A stretch of 64,000 nt of DNA, from positions 1,798,001 to 1,862,000 of the forward strand of contig NC_007498.2 in NCBI RefSeq assembly GCF_000012885.1, read 5' to 3'. Position 1 is the first letter of the stretch. The number at the start of each line of letters is the position of its first letter. The notes under the pieces were generated by a model. It searched no databases, was not told the origin of the DNA, and saw only the letters and a program-made list of their open reading frames with translations. A program made the translations under genes and the position numbers. Shown here one piece after another: positions 48,340 through 59,560 of this stretch. The stretch is from Syntrophotalea carbinolica DSM 2380. Lineage in GTDB: Bacteria; Desulfobacterota; Desulfuromonadia; Desulfuromonadales; Syntrophotaleaceae.

Positions 48340-50040
48340 CTATTTCTCCCGACCGAAAGGCCACGCCATTACGCCACCTTCAAGCACCTTGACGTTTTTC
48401 CAACCGTGGGCTTCAAGGAGTCTCTGAGCTTCGTAACCGCGCAAGGAAATTTTGCAGTAGCAAACGATTTCCTGATCTTTGTCTTGCGGAAGGTCTTGCA
48501 GTCGATTGCGCAGGTCTGAAATAGGAATCAAGGTTTCGCCGATACCGATGCGCATCATGTTGTATTCGTCTGGTGTCCTGACATCGAGGATAAAGGGAGT
48601 AGACTCGCTGTCAAGCAGCTTTTTCATTTCCAGAGAAGAGATGCCGTTCAGCCTGCCTTTCATCTTATTCTCCAGCAAGTGGGCAGAGGCGATGAAGTGG
48701 TCGATGGGGAGACTGAAAGGTGGTGCATAAGGCAGATCGGCATTGACCAGGTCGTGCACAGTCAGGTTGCCGAGTATGGCCATAGCGGCGGTTGCGATCT
48801 GTTTACTGACATCGCCGGGACCAACGCACTGAACGCCGAGGATCTTTCCTGTGCGACCATCTGCTACCAGTTTGGAGATCAGCAGCTTGGCGCCCATGAA
48901 CTCCGGCTTGTCAAGACTTGCGTTGATAACCGTGACGATGTTTTCGTATCCGGCCGCTTTTGCGTTAGCCTCGGACAGGCCCGTGGAGCCCGCGGAAAAA
49001 TCGAAAACCTTGCAGATGCCGGTATGGATGGTTCCGGGGAATTGAGCCGTGTTGCCGAGCACCACGTTTTCTCCGGTTACGCGGCCCTGTAAATTTGCCA
49101 GATCGCCGAAAGGGGCGCGGGTTCGAGCGCCGGTGATGCGATGGTTGATTTCCACGCAGTCACCGACAGCGTAAATATTGGGATCGGTAGTTTGCATGAA
49201 CGGATTGACCTCAATACCACCGGTAGGACCGATCTTGAGACCCGCCTCATCGGCCAATCGCGTGTTGGGTTGTACGCCAATGGCCATAACCGCCAGGTTG
49301 CAGGGTAATTCGGTACCGTTGGCCAGTTTTACGGCGGTTAGCTTTCCATCTTTGCCGATGAATTCGGCCACGCCGATATCCGTCAATACGTTGGCCGCCT
49401 TGCTCTTGACATGGTTTTCAAGAATTTTGGCCAGTTCCCAGTCAAGAAACATGAGAATCTGAGGTAACAGTTCCACAACCGTGATGTCTATCCCGGATAG
49501 CTGCAGGGCTTCACAGGTTTCTATACCGATCAGGCCGCCGCCGATGACCACTGCATTGGTGATGTCTTTATCGTCACGGATTTTACGCAAAAAGTCTGCA
49601 TCCTTCATTGATTGCAGCGTCGTAACCCCCTCCAGATCGATTCCAGGCAATGGGGGTTTGCGTGCTGTGGCTCCGGTAGCGATGACCAGCTTGTCGTAAG
49701 GCACCTGGTCAATGTCATTCGTTTCAAGGTTGCGGCAGGTGACCAATCGCTTTTCCCGGTCAATAGCGGTAACTTCGGTGCTGGTGCGGGCCGTAATACC
49801 CTTTGTATTCCAAAAGAAATCCGGATCCCGTACCTCTCCATAAGGGGTGCTCAACAACTGATTGCGGTCATTGAACACGCCACCGACGAAATAGGGGTAA
49901 CCGCAGGATGCCATCGACAGTTCCGGTGCCATCTGAATGATGGTTACCTCGGCATCCTGATCAAGGCGCTTGGCCCGGGCTGCTGTTTTGGGGCCCGCTG
50001 CGGAGCCACCGATTACTACAATGTGTTTCTTTTTATCCAT
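48340..50040 (-). CDS. FAD-dependent CoA-disulfide/polysulfide reductase with rhodanese domain
   Basis: The protein has 566 residues from ATG 50040 (GGAGG upstream). FAD site VVIGGSAAGPKTAARAKRL, redox Cys in MASCGYPYFVGG (the CoA-disulfide reductase Cys), NAD site AVVIGGGLIGIETCEAL, and a second flavin motif IYAVGDCVE. The last 100 residues are a rhodanese domain with the Cys loop IVCYCKISLRGYEA. Such fusions reduce CoA disulfide, CoA persulfide or polysulfide. It is divergent from the sigma-54 activator gene. Confidence 0.88.
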   Translation of the reverse strand: MDKKKHIVVIGGSAAGPKTAARAKRLDQDAEVTIIQMAPELSMASCGYPYFVGGVFNDRNQLLSTPYGEVRDPDFFWNTKGITARTSTEVTAIDREKRLVTCRNLETNDIDQVPYDKLVIATGATARKPPLPGIDLEGVTTLQSMKDADFLRKIRDDKDITNAVVIGGGLIGIETCEALQLSGIDITVVELLPQILMFLDWELAKILENHVKSKAANVLTDIGVAEFIGKDGKLTAVKLANGTELPCNLAVMAIGVQPNTRLADEAGLKIGPTGGIEVNPFMQTTDPNIYAVGDCVEINHRITGARTRAPFGDLANLQGRVTGENVVLGNTAQFPGTIHTGICKVFDFSAGSTGLSEANAKAAGYENIVTVINASLDKPEFMGAKLLISKLVADGRTGKILGVQCVGPGDVSKQIATAAMAILGNLTVHDLVNADLPYAPPFSLPIDHFIASAHLLENKMKGRLNGISSLEMKKLLDSESTPFILDVRTPDEYNMMRIGIGETLIPISDLRNRLQDLPQDKDQEIVCYCKISLRGYEAQRLLEAHGWKNVKVLEGGVMAWPFGREK

Positions 50041-50436
50041 GTTTAATCCTCCTATATGGAAAACGTTATATACGAAATAACAGATGCAAGATACACTTAG
50101 CAAGTTTTTTTTAGCCGCAAGATGTGTTCGCCTTATTGACTATGTTTGAATACCGTTGGTTGGATACGATTATTTTAATGTTGTTATATAGGTAGTTAGA
50201 TCACATTCCATGAGGTGGGTGTTGAGCTTTGCAGGAGTGGAATTTTTTCGATCCGATACAGAGAATTGCATAGCAAAGCGATGAGATGCCTCATCTCTTG
50301 CCCTAAATTGACCGGTGTGGGATGATAATCGAAATGACCCTGAGTTTTTATTCTGTTACCCTTTTCATTAGAAATAAAGGCCAGTGTTTTTATTTTACGC
50401 GCATAAACCGGATCGGATTTTTGGGAGTACATCGGG
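50041..50436. other. Divergent intergenic region between the reductase and the sigma-54 activator
   Basis: About 395 bp with no supported gene. It must hold the promoters of both divergent genes, but no strong sigma-70 or -24/-12 pair could be picked out by eye. It is AT-rich in the middle. Confidence 0.5.
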
Positions 50437-51831
50437 ATGAATAGTGAAAAGAAGCCTGGATACAAAATTCATACGATGACCGAAGCTATTCTGGAGAGCA
50501 TATCGGACGGGGTGTTCACCGTGGATATGGATTGGCGCGTTACCTCGTTTAATCGAGCCGCCGAAGAGATCACAGGCGTTTCGCGGCAAGAGGCAATCGG
50601 TCGCCGCTGTTCGGAAGTATTTCGTTCCAGTTTGTGCGGGACCGCCTGTGCACTCAGGCAAACCATGGAAGCCGATGAACCCATTATCGGTAAATCCGGG
50701 TACATCATCAACGCGGATGGCGACCGTATTCCCATCAGTATTTCCACGGCTGTTTTGCGTGATGCCGCCGGTAATGTCATAGGTGGCGCGGAAACCTTTC
50801 GCGATCTTTCTGAAATCGAGGCACTGCGTCAGGAACTCGGAGGTAAATTCCGGGTTGGCGATTTGACCAGCCGAAGTCCTCTCATGCAGCGTGTTTTCGA
50901 GGTTTTGCCCGCTATTGCCGCCAGTCCCAGTACGGTGCTGATCCTTGGAGAGACCGGCACCGGCAAGGAGTTGATGGCACGGACAATTCATTCTCTCAGC
51001 CCTCGCCACAAGGGACCCTTTATCGCGGTCAATTGCGGTGCGCTGCCCGATACGCTTCTGGAGTCGGAGTTGTTTGGCTACAAAGCCGGAGCTTTCACTG
51101 GCGCCAACAAGGATAAACCGGGCCGTTTTGCTTTGGCCAGGGGAGGGACCCTGTTTCTCGATGAAATCGGAGAGATAAGCCCCGCCCTCCAGATCAGGTT
51201 GTTGCGCGTGCTACAGGAACGCACATACGAGCCTCTCGGAGGGATCCGCTCCGAAAACGCCGATGTCAGGATTATCGTAGCGACTAACAAAGATCTTTCC
51301 AGCCAGGTTCGGCAAGGAATTTTCCGTGAAGATCTCTATTACCGGGTAAATGTGGTGCGTATCGAACTGCCCCCGCTGCACCGGCGAAAAGAAGATATCC
51401 CCTTTCTCGTAGAGCAGTTTATCGTCCAGTTCAATCGATTGCAGCAAAGATCCGTGAAGGGAATCACCGCGGAGGCATTGTCTCTGCTTATGGCCCACGA
51501 TTGGCCAGGCAACATTCGTGAACTGGAAAATATTGTCGAACGGGCTTTCATCCTTTGCAGCGACGGGGATATCGGCATTGAACATCTGCCCAAGGAGTTG
51601 ACAGGGCATGGGGCTGCATCGGATGCGCATACCGATACCGATATTAGATCCGCCCATGATATTCTCGACGTCCAGGCTATTCGATCCGCACTCGAACGAA
51701 ATTCTTTCAACCGACTGGCAGCAGCGAAGGAACTCGGCATCCACAAGACCACGCTTTTCCGTAAAATGAAGAAGCTGGGTATCCCACTTCCCGCGCAGGA
51801 TGGCCGCGCCAACCGGAAGAAACCACAGTAG
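50437..51831 (+). CDS. Sigma-54-dependent activator with PAS domain (ORP-type regulator)
   Basis: The protein has 464 residues. A PAS domain spans residues about 12-125 and contains three cysteines at about 58, 67 and 71 (CSEVFRSSLCGTACAL). The AAA+ domain has Walker A (GETGTGKE, about 171-178), the sigma-54 contact loop GAFTGA (about 218-223) and Walker B FLDEIGE. A Fis-type helix-turn-helix ends the protein (NRLAAAKELGIHKTTLFRKM). It probably switches on the operon that starts 191 bp later, whose promoter is of the -24/-12 type. The cysteines suggest redox or Fe-S sensing. Confidence 0.93.
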   Translation: MNSEKKPGYKIHTMTEAILESISDGVFTVDMDWRVTSFNRAAEEITGVSRQEAIGRRCSEVFRSSLCGTACALRQTMEADEPIIGKSGYIINADGDRIPISISTAVLRDAAGNVIGGAETFRDLSEIEALRQELGGKFRVGDLTSRSPLMQRVFEVLPAIAASPSTVLILGETGTGKELMARTIHSLSPRHKGPFIAVNCGALPDTLLESELFGYKAGAFTGANKDKPGRFALARGGTLFLDEIGEISPALQIRLLRVLQERTYEPLGGIRSENADVRIIVATNKDLSSQVRQGIFREDLYYRVNVVRIELPPLHRRKEDIPFLVEQFIVQFNRLQQRSVKGITAEALSLLMAHDWPGNIRELENIVERAFILCSDGDIGIEHLPKELTGHGAASDAHTDTDIRSAHDILDVQAIRSALERNSFNRLAAAKELGIHKTTLFRKMKKLGIPLPAQDGRANRKKPQ

Positions 51832-51858
51832 CCAACTTGCACCCCTTGCACTACCCCA

Positions 51859-51878
51859 GAGTAGCAAATTGTCTACTC
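51859..51878 (+). promoter_or_regulatory. Candidate enhancer (activator binding site)
   Basis: GAGTAG (51859-51864) and CTACTC (51873-51878) form an inverted repeat with 8 bp between. A further CTAC at 51851-51854 adds a third half-site. The center is about 95 bp upstream of the -24 box, right for a sigma-54 enhancer. Confidence 0.55.
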
Positions 51879-51961
51879 CACTCCCTTCAGAACAGCTTCC
51901 GACCAGAACATATATTCTTTATTATCAATAGGTTATGCGTTAACAAGTCGTGGGCCATATT

Positions 51962-51977
51962 TGGCACTGCACTTGCT
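51962..51977 (+). promoter_or_regulatory. Sigma-54 (-24/-12) promoter of the ORP-like operon
   Basis: TGGCAC (51962-51967), five bases, then TTGCT (51973-51977) matches the RpoN consensus TGGCAC-N5-TTGCW. It lies about 46 bp before ATG 52023, downstream of a sigma-54 activator gene. Confidence 0.85.
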
Positions 51978-52022
51978 CTATATATGGGTGTAAACGATGA
52001 CCAGCACCCAAGGGTTCTCATA

Positions 52023-52628
52023 ATGAAGATAGCATTTGCACATTGGGATAATCGCATCGCACCGGTTTTCGACACCGCTCACCAGATATACGTTGCCGAT
52101 ATCGAATCCGGAAATGTTGTCCGAGAGGCACAGGAAGCTCTGGCAGAAGGTCTGCCCGTCCGGAAGGTTCTTCGACTGGTTGAATTGGGTATCGGTACGT
52201 TGGTTTGTGGTGCGATTTCCAGGTCGATGTATGAGTTGATCAACGCTTACGGGATTCAGGTGATCCCTTTTGTTGCCGGTGATCTCGACGAGGTTATACG
52301 GTGCTGGCGTAGTGGCGATTTGGATAGTTGTTCCTTTAACATGCCAGGTTGCAACGGACGAGGAGGACGGCGATTCAGAATGATGCACGAGGGACAAAAG
52401 GAGGACGATACCATGAAACAGAGTGGACGTGGCATGGGTGCAGGCAGCGGGCGAGGGCAAGGCGGCCAAACTCCCGGGCGAGCCGGTCGCATGGGCGGCC
52501 CGAAAGCTGCCGGCCCTACGGGTTATTGCATTTGTCCGCAATGCGGGCAAAAAGAGCCTCATCAACGCGGGGTGCCTTGCGTGGAGCGCAAATGCCCCAA
52601 GTGCGGAAGCAATATGGCAAGGCAATAG
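52023..52628 (+). CDS. NifX/NifB-like Fe-Mo cofactor domain fused to a Gly-rich linker and zinc ribbon
   Basis: The protein has 201 residues from ATG 52023; the frame is open further upstream but the -24/-12 promoter lies inside that part. Residues 1-100 match the dinitrogenase iron-molybdenum cofactor domain (MKIAFAHWDNRIAPVFDTAH). A Gly/Arg linker (about 131-165) follows. The C-terminus has a zinc-ribbon set of cysteines (CPQCGQ ... CVERKCPKCGS). An internal ATG at 52413 with AAGGAGG may also give a 71-residue zinc-ribbon protein. First gene of the sigma-54 operon. Confidence 0.85.
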   Translation: MKIAFAHWDNRIAPVFDTAHQIYVADIESGNVVREAQEALAEGLPVRKVLRLVELGIGTLVCGAISRSMYELINAYGIQVIPFVAGDLDEVIRCWRSGDLDSCSFNMPGCNGRGGRRFRMMHEGQKEDDTMKQSGRGMGAGSGRGQGGQTPGRAGRMGGPKAAGPTGYCICPQCGQKEPHQRGVPCVERKCPKCGSNMARQ

Positions 52629-52658: not shown

Positions 52659-53006
52659 ATGCCGAGAGGAGATGGAACAGGACCGAGAGGAATGGGAGCA
52701 AGAACCGGACGAGCAGCGGGATTCTGCGCCGGATTTGAAATGCCGGGTTATGCCAATCCTGTTCAGGGATGGGGGTACGGCATGAGTTGCGGCAGGGGTC
52801 GCGGATGGCGCAACATGTTCCATGCTACCGGTCTGCCGGGTCGTGCGCGCTTCGCTGGTTATGGCGTCCCTTATGGCCCCACAGATCAACCCGATCAGGA
52901 CATGCAAAAGCAACTACTCAAGAGACAGGCTGAGGACCTGCAGGCGGAACTGGCGTTGATCAAGAAGCGCCTGGCCGAGGTTGAAAAGGAAACGGTAGCT
53001 GAATAA
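52659..53006 (+). CDS. DUF5320-like Gly/Met-rich protein
   Basis: The protein has 115 residues from ATG 52659 (AAAGGAG). It begins MPRGDGTGPRGMG, followed by TGRAAGFCAG, the pattern of DUF5320 proteins found beside NifX-like genes in anaerobes. The middle is Gly/Arg/Tyr-rich. The C-terminus (about 85-112) is a predicted coiled coil (LLKRQAEDLQAELALIKKRL). It may be a small scaffold or metal-binding partner. Function unknown. Confidence 0.8.
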   Translation: MPRGDGTGPRGMGARTGRAAGFCAGFEMPGYANPVQGWGYGMSCGRGRGWRNMFHATGLPGRARFAGYGVPYGPTDQPDQDMQKQLLKRQAEDLQAELALIKKRLAEVEKETVAE

Positions 53007-53161
53007 TTGCCGTTCAGAGCAAACAACGCCTGCTGCGCCGGTGTGAGCTCCAGCGCAGCAGTGGCGTTTGCGATCTTTCAAAAAGGCGATACCTGTTCAA
53101 GTGGCAACGGGTGAATACATCCAATTTTTTCCCAGTTTGGAGCACAATACAAAGGACCTAA

Positions 53162-53605
53162 ATGAAAAAAATTGCCATCATTATCTGTGCCCGTTACCGA
53201 GATTGCGGTGGGGGCAAATGTTTCCGGGCTTTGCGTGAACGTCATGGCGGTTTTTCTATGTATGCCACCGACGAGGCGATTGAAATTGTCGGATATGCCA
53301 GTTGCGGGGGCTGTCCGGGTGGAAACGTGGAATATGTTCCTGCCGAGTTTTTGAAAAATGGGTGTGACGTTGTCCATCTGGCAACCGGGTTGGTGGTAGG
53401 GTATCCACCTTGTCCTCATATAAAACAGTTTAAGGAATTCATCGAAAAACATTACGAATTGCCGGTTGTTATCGGGACCCATCCGATTCCATTGAAGTAT
53501 CTTGAAACCCACAACCGATTACCTTTCTGGGAACAGTCAGGCATGCAGGATCTCGCACCTCAGCTTATGGCGGAGACGTGCGACATCATGGAATCGTACA
53601 ATTAA
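53162..53605 (+). CDS. CGGC-domain metal-binding-like protein
   Basis: This 147-residue protein has MKKIAIIICARYRDCGGGKC at the start and the name-giving GYASCGGCPGGNVEYV motif. Other Cys/His (GYPPCPHIKQF, IGTHPIPLKY) are conserved in the CGGC family. The family is found in anaerobes and methanogens and is thought to bind metal; its role is not known. It lies within the sigma-54 operon. Confidence 0.85.
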   Translation: MKKIAIIICARYRDCGGGKCFRALRERHGGFSMYATDEAIEIVGYASCGGCPGGNVEYVPAEFLKNGCDVVHLATGLVVGYPPCPHIKQFKEFIEKHYELPVVIGTHPIPLKYLETHNRLPFWEQSGMQDLAPQLMAETCDIMESYN

Positions 53606-53627: not shown

Positions 53628-53990
53628 ATGAAAATTGCATTCACAACATCGGGAAACGAACTCACAGCACCTCTGGATCCCCGTTTCGGTCGAGCCAGTA
53701 AATTTCTCATCTATGATCTGGAAAATGAAACATTCGAGATGGTCGACAACCAGCAGAATTTAAACGCGGCACAGGGAGCCGGTATTCAATCAGCGGGAAC
53801 AGTGACCAATTCCGGGGCCGAGGCTCTGGTCTCCGGTCACTGTGGTCCTAAAGCGTTTCGCGTTCTGATGGCGGCAGGGGTTAAGGTTTTTTATTCCGAA
53901 GCGGGTACCGTGGGCGAAGCGCTCGATGCATACAAACAGGGAAAACTCACAGAGTCCAATGCCGCAGATGTCGAAGGACATTGGGAATGA
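53628..53990 (+). CDS. NifX/MTH1175-like (orange-protein-type) cofactor-binding protein
   Basis: This 120-residue stand-alone dinitrogenase iron-molybdenum cofactor domain reads MKIAFTTSGNELTAPLDPRFGRASKF, with GAGIQSAGTVTNSGAEALVSGHCGPKAF. This pattern is that of MTH1175 and the Mo/Cu orange protein of Desulfovibrio. Such proteins bind a metal-sulfur cluster. It is followed by the MinD-type ATPase gene, as in ORP clusters. Confidence 0.9.
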   Translation: MKIAFTTSGNELTAPLDPRFGRASKFLIYDLENETFEMVDNQQNLNAAQGAGIQSAGTVTNSGAEALVSGHCGPKAFRVLMAAGVKVFYSEAGTVGEALDAYKQGKLTESNAADVEGHWE

Positions 53991-54084
53991 GATCTCTTGT
54001 GCCGACATTTCGCTTCCGGAATAGTTTCGGACTGCACCTTGCGGTTTCGGCTGGAATCCAGCAATGGGGCAAAGGAGGGGGCCG

Positions 54085-54933
54085 ATGATTATCACTGTGG
54101 CTTCGGGTAAAGGGGGAACCGGTAAAACGACGGTGTCCGTCAATCTGGCTCATATGCTCGGATCCAAAGTACAGCTATTGGACTGCGATGTGGAGGAGCC
54201 GAATGCCCATCTTTTTTTGCAGTCTGAACCGAAAGAGCAGACCGTGGTTACGATCCCTGTTCCGCAAATCAATGAGGGACTTTGTGAATGCTGCGGCGAG
54301 TGCGCCAAATTTTGCGAGTATCATGCCATTGTTTCTTTCGGCACGACGCCTCTTATTTTTCCCGAGATGTGTCACGGATGCGGCGGCTGCTCCATTGTCT
54401 GCCCTAAAAAAGCCATTGGCGAAATCGACAAGCGTATCGGTACCGTCGAGACTTCAGAGGTGGAAAACATCCTCCTGGTCCAAGGTCGGCTTGATATAGG
54501 GATGGCCATGGCTCCGCCCTTGATCCGTGCCGTAAAGAACCGCTTGCAACAGGGCCTTCCGGCGATTCTCGATGCACCGCCCGGGACCTCATGTCCGGTG
54601 ATCGCCACCTTGCAGGATACCGATTTCGCTATACTTGTTACGGAGCCAACGCCCTTCGGGCTCAACGATCTGAAGCTTGCCGTGGCTATGATGCAGGAAA
54701 TCGACATTCCTTTCGGGGTGGTTGTCAATCGGTTCGGGGTTGGCGACAATCGGGTACATGAATTCTGCAAAGAACAACAGATTCCGGTACTTTTGGAAAT
54801 TCCCGATGATAGACGGATTGCGGAAGCCTACTCCCGCGGAGAATTGATTGTTGATGCCTTGCCTGAATACCGGGAACTGTTTCAGGGACTGATCGAGAAA
54901 ACCATGCATCAGTTCAATACTCAGACCGCCTGA
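54085..54933 (+). CDS. MinD/Mrp-type ATPase with inserted ferredoxin domain (first copy)
   Basis: The protein has 282 residues from ATG 54085 (AAAGGAGGGG). Deviant Walker A: SGKGGTGKTT at residues 8-17. A ferredoxin-like insert (about 68-115) has CECCGECAKFC and CHGCGGCSIVCPKKAI. Then Walker B-like ILDAPPGTSCPVI and VTEPTPFGLNDL. Paired with the second copy at 56583, these ATPases occur in ORP complexes and may load Fe-S or metal clusters onto the NifX-like partners. Confidence 0.9.
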   Translation: MIITVASGKGGTGKTTVSVNLAHMLGSKVQLLDCDVEEPNAHLFLQSEPKEQTVVTIPVPQINEGLCECCGECAKFCEYHAIVSFGTTPLIFPEMCHGCGGCSIVCPKKAIGEIDKRIGTVETSEVENILLVQGRLDIGMAMAPPLIRAVKNRLQQGLPAILDAPPGTSCPVIATLQDTDFAILVTEPTPFGLNDLKLAVAMMQEIDIPFGVVVNRFGVGDNRVHEFCKEQQIPVLLEIPDDRRIAEAYSRGELIVDALPEYRELFQGLIEKTMHQFNTQTA

Positions 54934-54973: not shown

Positions 54974-55957
54974 ATGATGACAGCCAGCGATACTCAATAT
55001 GTCTATGGGCCTGTTCCGTCACGCCGACTGGGAATGAGCTTGGGGATCAACAATATACCGGCCAAGAGATGTACTTATTCCTGTGTTTACTGCCAAGTGG
55101 GTCGCATGACAAAGATGCAGAATGCCCGGCAGGCCTTCTATAAACCTGAAAAGCTGTTGCAGGGGGTTCACAACCGCCTGGAAAACACTCGAGTGGCTTC
55201 AGGATGCGTCGATTATCTCACCTTCGTGCCTGATGGAGAGCCCACCCTGGACAAGAACCTGGGCGAAGAAATTCACCTTTTGGAAAATCTGGATATCCCG
55301 ATTGGTGTCATCACGAACAGTTCTCTTCTGTGGCGTGAAGATGTGCGCAACGAGTTGGCGAAGGCCGATTGGGTTTCGGTAAAAATTGATACAGTTGATG
55401 AACTTATCTGGCGGAAGATAAACCGCCCACACAAGGCGCTCTGCTTGTCCCGAATATTGGATGGTATTCTTACTTTCAGCAGAAAGTTTACCGGCAAACT
55501 GGTCACCGAAACAATGCTTGTCAGGGGAGTCAATGATAATCCCGGATGTGTGCAAGGGGTCGCTGAATTTCTCCATAAGTTGCAGCCTTCTCTAAGCTAT
55601 ATAAGCGTTCCCACCCGTCCTCCGGCAGAGAAAGGGGTAGGTATCCCGAACGACCAGACCATTAACTGGACATATCAACTGTTTGCGGACAGATTGAAAC
55701 AGGTGGAGATTCTGATCGATTATGAAGGCGATGATTTTGCCTTTACCAGTGAGGTGGAAAAAGATCTTTTGGGCATAACCGCTGTGCATCCGATGAGATC
55801 ATCCGCTGTACGGATGCTCGTTTCCAGGGCTGGAGCTTCATGGGCTGTTGTAGACCGGTTGCTGGCCACAGGGAAACTCACGAAAACAACATACGATGGT
55901 CACACCTTTTATCTGAGAAAGTTTCCAAAGAAGGTGAGGGAATCTCATGACCGATAA
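54974..55957 (+). CDS. Radical SAM protein with C-terminal helical domain
   Basis: This 327-residue protein has the radical SAM motif CTYSCVYC near residue 33 (CxxxCxxC). GEPTLDKN and VKIDTVDE are the AdoMet and substrate strands typical of a MoaA-like barrel. About 75 C-terminal residues look like a small winged-helix-like domain. It overlaps the methyltransferase gene by 11 bp. In this context it might act on a cofactor or protein partner of the ORP-type system. The substrate is unknown. Confidence 0.85.
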   Translation: MMTASDTQYVYGPVPSRRLGMSLGINNIPAKRCTYSCVYCQVGRMTKMQNARQAFYKPEKLLQGVHNRLENTRVASGCVDYLTFVPDGEPTLDKNLGEEIHLLENLDIPIGVITNSSLLWREDVRNELAKADWVSVKIDTVDELIWRKINRPHKALCLSRILDGILTFSRKFTGKLVTETMLVRGVNDNPGCVQGVAEFLHKLQPSLSYISVPTRPPAEKGVGIPNDQTINWTYQLFADRLKQVEILIDYEGDDFAFTSEVEKDLLGITAVHPMRSSAVRMLVSRAGASWAVVDRLLATGKLTKTTYDGHTFYLRKFPKKVRESHDR

Positions 55958-56570
55958 CGGAAATAGTGGCAAACGCTATCTTGAAACCTGTCGAAGTGAA
56001 TTCTGGCAAAAGGTCTTCCGGTTGGAACTCGCTTACCTCGTCAAGCATCTCGAAGGATGCGGCGAAATCCTCAGTGTGGGATGTGGCCCGGCGATTCTTG
56101 AAGGAGAATTGACCAAGCTTGGTTTCAGTGTCACGGGGCTGGACATATCCCAAGAAGCATTGAGCTGCGCACCGGATAAAATCAGAACAGTGGTGGCACG
56201 GGCAGAGGATATGCCTTTCCCTGCCAATTCTTTTGATGCGGTAATTTATGTGGCCTCTTTGCAGTTTGTCGACAACTACCGAGAAGCGATTAAGAAAACA
56301 GCCGCCGTGTTGCGACCCAACGGCAAATTTATCGCCATGTTGCTGAACCCGGCGTCCATGTTTTTCAGGAAAAAAATGCAAGATCCCAGTTCTTATATGA
56401 CCAAAATCAAACATACGGATCTAAAAGCTGTGGAGGAAACGATTACAGCATTTTTCACAGTGCATACCGAATATTTTCTTCGCATTGATAACAACGAGGT
56501 TTCAACTGTCGCCAAAGAAGCCGACGCAGCCTTGTACATCATTTCAGGCACCAGGAACGCGCAGATATAG
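55947..56570 (+). CDS. Class I SAM-dependent methyltransferase
   Basis: This 207-residue protein has motif I (ILSVGCGPAILEGEL), motif II (VTGLDISQEAL) and motif IV (SFDAVIYVASLQFV), a Methyltransf_11-type fold. It starts inside the radical SAM gene, so the two are probably coupled. The substrate is unknown. It sits between the radical SAM and second ATPase genes. Confidence 0.85.
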   Translation: MTDNGNSGKRYLETCRSEFWQKVFRLELAYLVKHLEGCGEILSVGCGPAILEGELTKLGFSVTGLDISQEALSCAPDKIRTVVARAEDMPFPANSFDAVIYVASLQFVDNYREAIKKTAAVLRPNGKFIAMLLNPASMFFRKKMQDPSSYMTKIKHTDLKAVEETITAFFTVHTEYFLRIDNNEVSTVAKEADAALYIISGTRNAQI

Positions 56571-56582
56571 GGAGCGAAAGAA

Positions 56583-57458
56583 ATGCAGGAGTTGGTAATT
56601 ATCAGCGGTAAAGGTGGTACAGGAAAGACCAGTATAACAGCATCCTTCGCCATGCTTGCCGAACGCCCGGTCATCGCCGATTGTGATGTGGATGCTGCTG
56701 ATCTGCACCTGATTCTATCACCCTCGGTCAAATCAAGCCACGCATTCAGGGCCGGACATGAGGCTGTTATTCGCGCGGAAAAATGTAACGGTTGCGGCGC
56801 CTGCCTGGTCCATTGCCGTTTTTGCGCGGTTAAAAAAAGCGCCGAACAGACAGGGAAACCGATTTTTTCCATCGATCCCGTTGCCTGCGAGGGGTGTGGC
56901 GTCTGTGTGTACGTTTGTCCGGAACAGGCCATCGATTTTCCCGAGAGACTTTGTGGCGAATGGATGGTGTCAGATACCCGCTGCGGCCCCATGGTTCATG
57001 CCAGGCTGGGTATAGCCGCGGAAAATTCCGGCAAACTTGTTTCTACGGTTCGCCAGGAAGCCCGCCGACTTGCAAAAGAGAAGGATCACCCTTTAGTCAT
57101 TGTTGACGGCCCACCGGGGATTGGATGCCCGGTTATCGCGTCGGTGACTGGAGCGACTATGGTGCTGGCGGTTACGGAACCTACGGTATCCGGGGAACAC
57201 GATTTGGAGCGGGTTCTTTCCCTGACGCGGCATTTTCAGATTCCCACCGCGATCTGTGTGAATAAATGGGACATAAACCCTGAGATGACGGCCCGCATTG
57301 AGGATACTGCACGGCAGGCAGGCGCAAAGATTGCCGGCCGAATCCGTTACGACGGTTCGATCACCCAAGCCCAGATGGGCGAAAAGGCGGTAGTGGAAAC
57401 GGATGCTCCCTGTGTCGAGGATATCAAAGCCATCTGGAACAACCTTGGCTTTACATGA
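56583..57458 (+). CDS. MinD/Mrp-type ATPase with inserted ferredoxin domain (second copy)
   Basis: This 291-residue protein has deviant Walker A ISGKGGTGKTSITAS. The ferredoxin insert has CNGCGACLVHCRFCAV and CEGCGVCVYVCPEQAI. A Walker B-like IVDGPPGIGCPVI and VTEPTVSGEHDLE follow. It is a paralogue of the 54085 protein, and the two probably form the heteromeric ATPase of the ORP-like complex. The ribosome site AGGGAGCG lies close upstream. Confidence 0.9.
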   Translation: MQELVIISGKGGTGKTSITASFAMLAERPVIADCDVDAADLHLILSPSVKSSHAFRAGHEAVIRAEKCNGCGACLVHCRFCAVKKSAEQTGKPIFSIDPVACEGCGVCVYVCPEQAIDFPERLCGEWMVSDTRCGPMVHARLGIAAENSGKLVSTVRQEARRLAKEKDHPLVIVDGPPGIGCPVIASVTGATMVLAVTEPTVSGEHDLERVLSLTRHFQIPTAICVNKWDINPEMTARIEDTARQAGAKIAGRIRYDGSITQAQMGEKAVVETDAPCVEDIKAIWNNLGFT

Positions 57459-57597: not shown

Positions 57598-58434
57598 ATG
57601 CAAACCGCTGATGTAAAAATCACGATCCTTGTCGACAACCTGGTTGGTGAAGGTCTTATTGTCGAGCACGGCTTGTCGTTTTGGATAGAGACAAATGACC
57701 AGCGTATTTTATTTGACACAGGGCAGGGTGGTGCCCTCAAGAACAACGCATATGCTCTTGGTGTCGATTTGAGCAAAACGGATATGCTGGTTTTAAGCCA
57801 TGGACACTACGATCATACCGGCGGTCTGCCTTATGTTTTGCAACGGGCTCATAATGTTCACATTTATGGTCATCCCGGTATGGTTCAGCCGCGCTACAGC
57901 ATGAGCAATGGAACCTCCAAATCCATTCAAATGCCACGTAAATCCATGATGGCTATTGATAAATTACCTTCTAAACAACTTCACTGGGTTCAACAACCGA
58001 TTTTTCTGTCGGATAAAATCGGCCTGACCGGTCCGATACCCCGCGAGACAAGTTTTGAGGACCCGGGAGGTCCGTTTTACCTTAATCCCGAGGCGAAAAT
58101 CGCCGACCCTATTGATGATGATCTCGCGCTCTGGATTCGTAAGGACGATGAACTCATCGTTTGTGTTGGCTGTGCCCATGCAGGGTTGGTAAATACGCTG
58201 AACTACATCAGATCCCTGAATCATGGCCTGAGGATTCGGACTGTTATCGGCGGGTTTCATCTGCACAACGCCAATCGTCAACGTTTGGATGAAACCATAG
58301 CAGCTTTGCGGCAGCTGGATACGGATACGGTGGTTGCTTGTCACTGCACAGGTGAAACGGCTGTCGACTTGCTTCGTGAAAAGCTAGGTGATCGGGTGTC
58401 GACTGGGGTCGCGGGGATGACTTATCAGTTCTAG
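57598..58434 (+). CDS. Metallo-beta-lactamase-fold hydrolase
   Basis: This 278-residue protein has the MBL zinc motif LSHGHYDHTGG (HxHxDH), with VCVGCAHAGLVN and VIGGFHLH further on. It resembles the family annotated as dihydropterin ribofuranosylaminobenzene phosphate synthase-like, common in methanogens and anaerobes, but that activity cannot be assigned. A 139-bp gap separates it from the second ATPase gene; a weak ribosome site leaves the start uncertain. Confidence 0.82.
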   Translation: MQTADVKITILVDNLVGEGLIVEHGLSFWIETNDQRILFDTGQGGALKNNAYALGVDLSKTDMLVLSHGHYDHTGGLPYVLQRAHNVHIYGHPGMVQPRYSMSNGTSKSIQMPRKSMMAIDKLPSKQLHWVQQPIFLSDKIGLTGPIPRETSFEDPGGPFYLNPEAKIADPIDDDLALWIRKDDELIVCVGCAHAGLVNTLNYIRSLNHGLRIRTVIGGFHLHNANRQRLDETIAALRQLDTDTVVACHCTGETAVDLLREKLGDRVSTGVAGMTYQF

Positions 58435-58516
58435 GACAGGGGGAGAAATCCAACGACATCAGGAGGTTAACAACAAGGGCGGATTGGATGGATTCAAACC
58501 TGAAGGGAGGCTCGAT

Positions 58517-59560
58517 ATGGCTGACAAACAAAGCATTCTTGAAGCTATCAAGGTCGTTCAGGATCCGGAACTGAATAAGAGTCTTATCGATCTCGGCATG
58601 ATTCGAGACATTTTCGTAGAAAAAGGCTTGGTCAGACTATCCCTGGCGCTCACCACTTCCAAATGTCCCAAAAAAGAGGCCATCGTAGCGGAGATCAGGC
58701 AAGTACTGCAGAATCTGCCCGACGTTTCCAAAGTTGAGGTAAAACTGACGACTTTGACGAAGGAAGAACTTCGGAAACTTTTTCCAGAACATCCATTGGT
58801 CGGTCTGAACAGAGTACGTCATGTTTTGGCCGTGGCCAGCGGCAAGGGTGGGGTGGGCAAAACCACGGCAGCGGTGAACGTCGCCCTTGGTCTGGCAGCA
58901 AAGGGCAACCGGGTTGGCCTTCTCGATGCAGATGTCTACGGACCGAGTGTACCGGTCATGCTGGGACTCAATGATTCGCCGGACTGGGAAAATGGCATGA
59001 TGATTCCCGTGGAGAAATTCGGACTCAGGATCATGTCGTTAGGTATGATTACCGATAAGGGCAAGCCCGTTGTTTGGCGAGGACCGCTTGTATCCAAGGC
59101 GATCAGGCAATTGCTGGGGCAGGTTCTGTGGGGCGATCTGGACTATCTGGTGGTGGATCTTCCACCCGGCACCGGAGATCCCTCCATTACGGTGGCGCAA
59201 GCCATACCCGGTGCGACTGTCCTGATGGTTACCACGCCACAGGAAGTGGCTCTGGCCGATGTTCGCAGGTCTATAGACTTATTTAATAAATTCAACATTG
59301 GTATCCTTGGGTTGCTTGAAAATATGTCCTATTTCTTCTGCGGTCATAGCGAAAAACCGATTGAGATTTTTGGGCAGGGTGGGGGTGAAAAATTAAGTAA
59401 AGAGTTCGGACTACCGTTGTTAGGAAAGATTCCCATCGATTTGGAAATAGGAAAGGGCGGCGACTCTGGAGTGCCGCTGATGATATTGGCGCCTGATTCT
59501 GAAACCGGCAGGATATTTCAGAATATTGCAGAAAAAATCATGGGGGTTGTCAGGAACTGA
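58517..59560 (+). CDS. Mrp/NBP35-type Fe-S cluster carrier ATPase
   Basis: The protein has 347 residues from ATG 58517 (AAGGGAGG). The N-terminal MIP18-like domain (residues about 5-85, VVQDPELNKSLIDLGMIRDI) is followed by the ATPase core with ASGKGGVGKTT, DADVYGPSVP and VVDLPPGTGDPSI. No CxxC near the C-terminus is evident: CG in YFFCGHSEKP is the only such site. Mrp proteins carry and deliver [4Fe-4S] clusters. It ends the operon and is also found in Desulfovibrio ORP loci. Confidence 0.92.
   Translation: MADKQSILEAIKVVQDPELNKSLIDLGMIRDIFVEKGLVRLSLALTTSKCPKKEAIVAEIRQVLQNLPDVSKVEVKLTTLTKEELRKLFPEHPLVGLNRVRHVLAVASGKGGVGKTTAAVNVALGLAAKGNRVGLLDADVYGPSVPVMLGLNDSPDWENGMMIPVEKFGLRIMSLGMITDKGKPVVWRGPLVSKAIRQLLGQVLWGDLDYLVVDLPPGTGDPSITVAQAIPGATVLMVTTPQEVALADVRRSIDLFNKFNIGILGLLENMSYFFCGHSEKPIEIFGQGGGEKLSKEFGLPLLGKIPIDLEIGKGGDSGVPLMILAPDSETGRIFQNIAEKIMGVVRN

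Follow-up and report, generated by a model that had tools for sequence, protein, structure and literature searches.

The closest described counterpart of the locus analyzed here is the orp system of Desulfovibrio vulgaris Hildenborough, in which OrpR (DVU2106), a one-component sigma-54 activator, is encoded adjoining its targets, as set out in excerpts of three papers (PMC3897727, PMC6345978, PMC4641369). Going by the same excerpts, the likeness to the window, by which we mean the whole 64-kb stretch of DNA analyzed, extends to the promoters, where palindromic activator sites are followed by an IHF site and then a -24/-12 element, and to the operons, which encode ORP (NifX-like), Fe-S ATPase and Mrp proteins. 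The orp promoters require IHF, according to an excerpt of PMC3897727. We consider it very probable that the operon in the window is likewise driven by its neighboring activator, acting through tandem sites, an IHF-induced bend and a sigma-54 promoter (Table 1).

Table 1. Features of the candidate circuit (positions within the window)
Feature	Position	Strand	Remarks
Activator gene, PAS + AAA+ + Fis-type HTH, 464 aa	50437..51831	+	Pfam
Putative operator copy 1, CAGTAGC-N6-GCACCCC	51826..51845	+	7/8 to GTnGC-N6-GCnAC; right arm degenerate
Putative operator copy 2, GAGTAGC-N6-TCTACTC	51859..51878	+	7/8; inverted repeat of the sequence-only reading
IHF-like site, TATCAATAGGTTA	51923..51935	+	Full match to WATCARNNNNTTR
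Sigma-54 promoter, TGGCAC-N5-TTGCT	51962..51977	+	Exact; predicted start near 51988
First operon gene, NifX/ORP-like (Nitro_FeMo-Co), Cys-rich C-terminus, 201 aa	52023..52628	+	
DUF5320 protein	52659..53006	+	
CGGC-domain protein	53162..53605	+	
Second NifX/ORP-like protein	53628..53990	+	
MinD/ParA-type ATPase, 4Fe-4S insert	54064..54933	+	
Radical SAM protein	54974..55957	+	
Methyltransferase	55947..56570	+	
Second MinD/ParA-type ATPase, 4Fe-4S insert	56583..57458	+	
Metallo-beta-lactamase-fold protein	57598..58434	+	Probably in operon
Mrp/NBP35-type iron-sulfur carrier (FeS_assembly_P + NUBPL P-loop)	58484..59560	+	Probably last gene

The promoter and the operon

Orthologues for comparison were mostly the best-scoring loci of searches of relatives, with further regions chosen by position. 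For the first set we assembled 46 regions (the window, L002-L017 and L083-L111) and removed 11 in which the NifX-like gene was not adjacent, the contig was cut or the sequence was a duplicate, leaving 35. A sequence-only reading of this DNA had placed a near-consensus -24/-12 promoter 46 bp ahead of the first operon gene, and this claim survives intact. TGGCAC (51962-51967) and TTGC (51973-51976) are exact, with the ATG of the first gene 46 nt downstream. When the 209 nt from the end of the activator gene to the first operon gene were shuffled 5000 times, a promoter score of 10/10 was reached 0 times. TGGCAC-N5-TTGC has this sole exact match within the window; the whole genome holds 19, compared with 2 for a reversed-pattern control. 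A promoter score of at least 8/10 is found in 35/35 orthologous regions, where shuffles average 2.2. The element, which has both its GG and its GC, is beyond chance. Among the 19 genomic sites, the tandem operator described below occurs at that of the window alone. At another of the 19, L125, a single 8/8 operator site lies at -156. The genome has one PF04552 (rpoN) match, at 222.8 bits.

A sigma-70 promoter, or transcription running on from the activator gene, might instead serve the operon, with the sigma-54 sequence a relict. Two weak sigma-70-like matches (9/12) on the + strand, at 51740-51767 and 51997-52024, speak for this, but the scanned stretch contains 3 promoter-like matches in total against 3.4 in shuffles, and it is the -24/-12 element that is conserved among orthologues; we regard this explanation as very unlikely and retain the sigma-54 promoter.

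The set of encoded proteins, taken together with the ORP link (excerpt of PMC6345978), suggests an iron-sulfur or metal cofactor role for the operon. Several smaller features accompany it. A 9-codon leader ORF (stop included) at 51997-52023 starts ~9 nt past the predicted transcript start and terminates on the first base of the operon ATG (TAATG); short ORFs likewise run over the operon ATG in L083, L084 and L086 (sequences read by eye), and L085 has ~160 additional bases between promoter and first gene relative to its close kin. A G+C-rich hairpin (53030-53061), a possible attenuator or processing site, lies between the DUF5320 and CGGC genes. On the other side, the activator gene adjoins a divergent gene (48340-50040) for a CoA-disulfide-reductase-like flavoprotein with a rhodanese domain, and such a gene adjoins the activator in L083 too.

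The tandem operator

The inverted repeat GAGTAG-N8-CTACTC, which the sequence-only reading had proposed as the enhancer, is present exactly as described and occurs once in the 3.67-Mb genome. By itself it is within chance: a perfect 6-bp repeat of some kind, spaced by 4-12 bp, arises in 627 of 2000 shuffles, and we abandoned any claim of significance for the repeat alone. Its significance derives from the comparative evidence of the orthologous regions. A pair of GTnGC-N6-GCnAC sites, with copies 31-34 bp apart just past or over the activator stop codon, is found in 28 of the 35 regions, against a chance mean of 0.005 regions and a maximum of 1 over 200 dinucleotide-shuffle rounds of the 35. 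Shuffling the region of the window 5000 times gave no such pair, and the window contains one. A second set, made up of the best 30 loci from the order of genome G098 together with L138, has the pair in 19/31 regions against 0 in shuffles. The best palindrome found de novo in this set is once more GTAGC-N6-GCTAC (9/31; shuffled best 2). Nine of the 11 removed regions were tested, and none has the pair; L007 has a single full site.

In the window, copy 1 (in full, CAGTAGC-caactt-GCACCCC) lies 33 bp upstream of copy 2, and the TAG stop codon of the activator gene (51829-51831) sits inside its GTAGC. The same coincidence of stop codon and half-site is seen in 34 of the 66 orthologues that have the tandem pair (92 examined). 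The right arm of copy 1 is degenerate in close relatives as well. A third half-site had been mentioned in the sequence-only reading with no place given; what we find is a second, degenerate copy of the whole site, beyond the segment which that reading covered. Where the pair exists, the operator-promoter distance is mostly 94-111 bp, while the 31-34 bp copy spacing belongs to the definition of the pair; in the window the center of copy 2 precedes the -12 element by ~106 bp. The distances form clusters (94-98, 104-111 and 117-122), but this indication of helical phasing is weak and we make no claim of it. The stretch upstream of the activator gene (50041-50436) has no operator site of at least 7/8. 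One activator subclade (L146, L147, L152, L153, L154, L157) is without a recognizable operator just past the gene, and some of its members have a longer distance to the NifX gene.

Lying on and directly past the stop codon, and able to form hairpins, the repeats could belong to the end of the activator gene, as terminator remnants or as an mRNA element, and be no operator at all. We judge this extremely unlikely: a terminator scan found no terminator-like site there on the + strand, the pair keeps its 31-34 bp spacing (by definition) and mostly lies 94-111 bp from the promoter, and the half-site tracks a residue of the activator's recognition helix, as set out below. We therefore continue to treat the repeats as a putative operator.

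The activator protein

The protein has GAFTGA at residue 218 in its AAA+ domain, C58-X8-C67-X3-C71 in its PAS domain and T438 in the recognition helix of its HTH. An AAA+ domain with GAFTGA coupled to a Fis-type HTH is the mark of a sigma-54 enhancer-binding protein (EBP), and by sequence the upstream activator sites lie at the ~100 bp typical of such a protein. The best solved structural relatives are ZraR (1ojl) and NifA (9qq6). In the structure model (mean pLDDT 83.5) the recognition helix spans residues 437-447, making residue 438 its second residue. No NCBIfam model among the best 25 of 35 exceeds its cut-off for the activator; the highest-scoring, PrdR, reaches 367.6 bits against a cut-off of 795.

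The three PAS cysteine columns are kept in 43, 43 and 44 of the first 44 rows, the losses being in the frameshifted L015, and C-X8-C-X3-C is present in the PAS domain of 69/69 and 54/54 further rows. This conservation is no more than suggestive of redox or Fe-S sensing through C58, C67 and C71. OrpR reportedly holds a redox-sensitive 4Fe-4S cluster in its PAS domain, according to a 2021 paper. In L015 the apparent frameshift runs across the PAS cysteine stretch of the activator, and operator and promoter are still recognizable.

Residue 438 and the middle base of the half-site

The operator could be read in 92 orthologues. Among these, residue 438 (alignment number 448; an offset of 10) predicts C in the middle of the half-site with 93.5% leave-one-out accuracy. 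It is the best of 474 columns scanned; the next-best reaches 79.3% and the baseline is 56.5%. The middle base is A or T in 122/126 half-sites with T438, and C in 61/92 with S438 and 10/13 with A438. Scored for the presence of any C, T438 goes without C in 32/34 cases of the first set and S/A438 with C in 22/22; the later set gives 16/16 and 16/20. The rule was derived from the first 50 rows, 48 of which agree, and was then met by new rows, the any-C coding of half-sites having been settled once these new rows had been seen. The test excludes 67 of the 159 tree rows as unusable. Among these 67 are 43 of the 135 rows that carry T438, S438 or A438, some of the 135 lying outside the window's clade; the 43 have no site of at least 7/8 in the first 195 nt. 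On the tree, residue 438 undergoes at least nine changes; the rows are related and yield only four independent pairs on well-supported branches, of which on average 3.6 agree, 0.4 show no difference and 0 are opposed (sign-test p 0.125).

That residue 438 tracks the middle base of the half-site ties the activator to the operator sites. This covariation, together with the conservation seen across dozens of orthologues, supports the earlier interpretation on three points: an enhancer placed between the activator gene and its target, a -24/-12 promoter, and sigma-54 control of the locus.

The IHF-like site and the proposed mechanism

When the 35 regions are aligned on their promoters, a common IHF-like sequence is found 39-43 nt upstream of the TGG. 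The mean score at this fixed place is 6.77/9, against 5.25 in shuffles (sd 0.09, max 5.54); 300 permuted consensi average 5.69 and all stay below it (max 6.60), and the reverse complement of the IHF consensus scores 6.11, at a different place. Exact matches number 2/35 (0.73 in shuffles) and matches with at most one mismatch 17/35 (11.7 in shuffles), so that numbers of matches do not decide the matter and it is position that sets the regions apart from shuffles. Judged by sequence, the window has the OrpR trait of an IHF-like site between operator and promoter, a placement in keeping with the IHF-dependent orp promoters (excerpt of PMC3897727). The genome encodes four HU/IHF-type proteins. This site, the copy of the operator over the stop codon and the paralogy with OrpR discussed below had all escaped the sequence-only reading.

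From this layout we infer activator binding, DNA looping, the use of IHF and the start site as follows. The activator would bind the two tandem sites, and two activator dimers so placed, 33 bp apart, would nucleate the AAA+ ring. IHF probably bends the intervening DNA at its site such that the ring meets sigma-54 RNA polymerase at the promoter. The ring would then open the polymerase complex, and transcription of the NifX/MinD/radical-SAM/Mrp operon would begin near position 51988.

Comparison with OrpR and other sigma-54 circuits

In a quick activator tree, made without bootstrap and with long branches, the window falls in a 68-row clade (SH-aLRT 93) and 17 OrpR-type rows form a separate one (94). 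The OrpR-type rows were recognized by the published orp2 IHF site (in L181) and GAFTDA, not by comparison with the DVU2106 protein itself. In L181 the orp2 IHF site stands 8 nt past the activator stop codon, ahead of the activator-adjacent promoter, and the activator has GAFTDA; of the 199 genomes in the order to which L181 belongs, 22 match the published 13-nt site. GAFTDA is present in 16/17 rows of the OrpR clade and D438 in 17/17. Some more distant window-like rows have GAFTDA as well, and we dropped it as a marker of the OrpR clade. The operators are also distinct: the window's tandem pair is found in 0/17 OrpR-clade regions, whereas GCGAA-N3-TTCGC at 9/10 or better (its spacer of 3 selected from 0-7) is found in 9/17 of these (shuffled 0.06) and in 0/66 window-clade regions. 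One genome, G275, carries both kinds of activator (L212, L213). Given the separate clade and the different operator, we reject the identification of the window activator as OrpR; on this sequence evidence the two are sister paralogues.

The window's own genome has a paralogous circuit (L112; activator gene at G000:C1:889173-890462), in which an activator with the same PAS C-X8-C-X3-C has a NifX gene, two MinD genes and an Mrp-like gene downstream, resembling the circuit in the window. This activator differs from the window's in having GAYTGA and half-sites GTTGC/GCAAC, with 47% identity between the two proteins; in the tree it joins the OrpR clade (SH-aLRT 91), its branch being long. The circuit lies in L112:4700-10600 and is the genome's second ORP-like one; its -24/-12 element is imperfect (TGGCACGGTATGTGAT). 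Since this paralogue stands ahead of a similar cluster and the genome has at least 16 EBP-like matches, the sigma-54 promoter in the window could be driven by another cellular activator, for instance the paralogue. We think this very unlikely, because it is residue 438 of the neighboring activator that covaries with the window operator, the OrpR clade has the other palindrome and none of the tandem pairs, and the paralogue's own region has GTTGC/GCAAC; the neighboring activator is the better candidate.

Although this kind of switch is known, the variant with its own operator, sister clade and residue-base link is without description in the literature searched. Among the papers listed, no title or abstract opening dealt with the window-clade circuit or a residue-base code, which is weak evidence of absence. 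A search for DUF5320 or sigma-54 gave no DUF5320 among the matches listed, and one for OrpR with iron-sulfur gave only an unrelated paper. Excerpts of the Pelobacter genome paper (PMC3543383) have no 'sigma-54' or 'RpoN', and those of PMC2725144, PMC12316311 and PMC7962754 do not describe the window-clade circuit.

For activators of anaerobic bacteria that had been unassigned, the analysis proposes an operator and a target operon, together with the hypothesis that one residue sets specificity. Through the link between residue and base, a sigma-54 activator is connected with its enhancer purely from sequence. Compared with known systems, the NtrC-like EBP circuits (ZraR, NifA, NtrC, FleQ) have AAA+ and Fis-type domains in common with the window activator but differ in sensor domain, operator and target. 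OrpR is closer, differing in its GAFTDA loop, where the window activator has GAFTGA, and in serving two divergent operons where the window has one co-directional operon. A wider possibility, for and against which we see the case as evenly balanced, is a large family of PAS (C-X8-C-X3-C) activators that would operate redox switches in parallel, controlling the paralogous ORP-like operons of anaerobes. Some genomes would have several such switches, and a residue-438 code would keep them insulated from one another, with T, S/A or D reading the half-site middle (GTA/TGC, GTCGC or GCGAA type, respectively). OrpR would be one branch of this family, and the Desulfovibrio orp system would then appear as a single branch of something wider.
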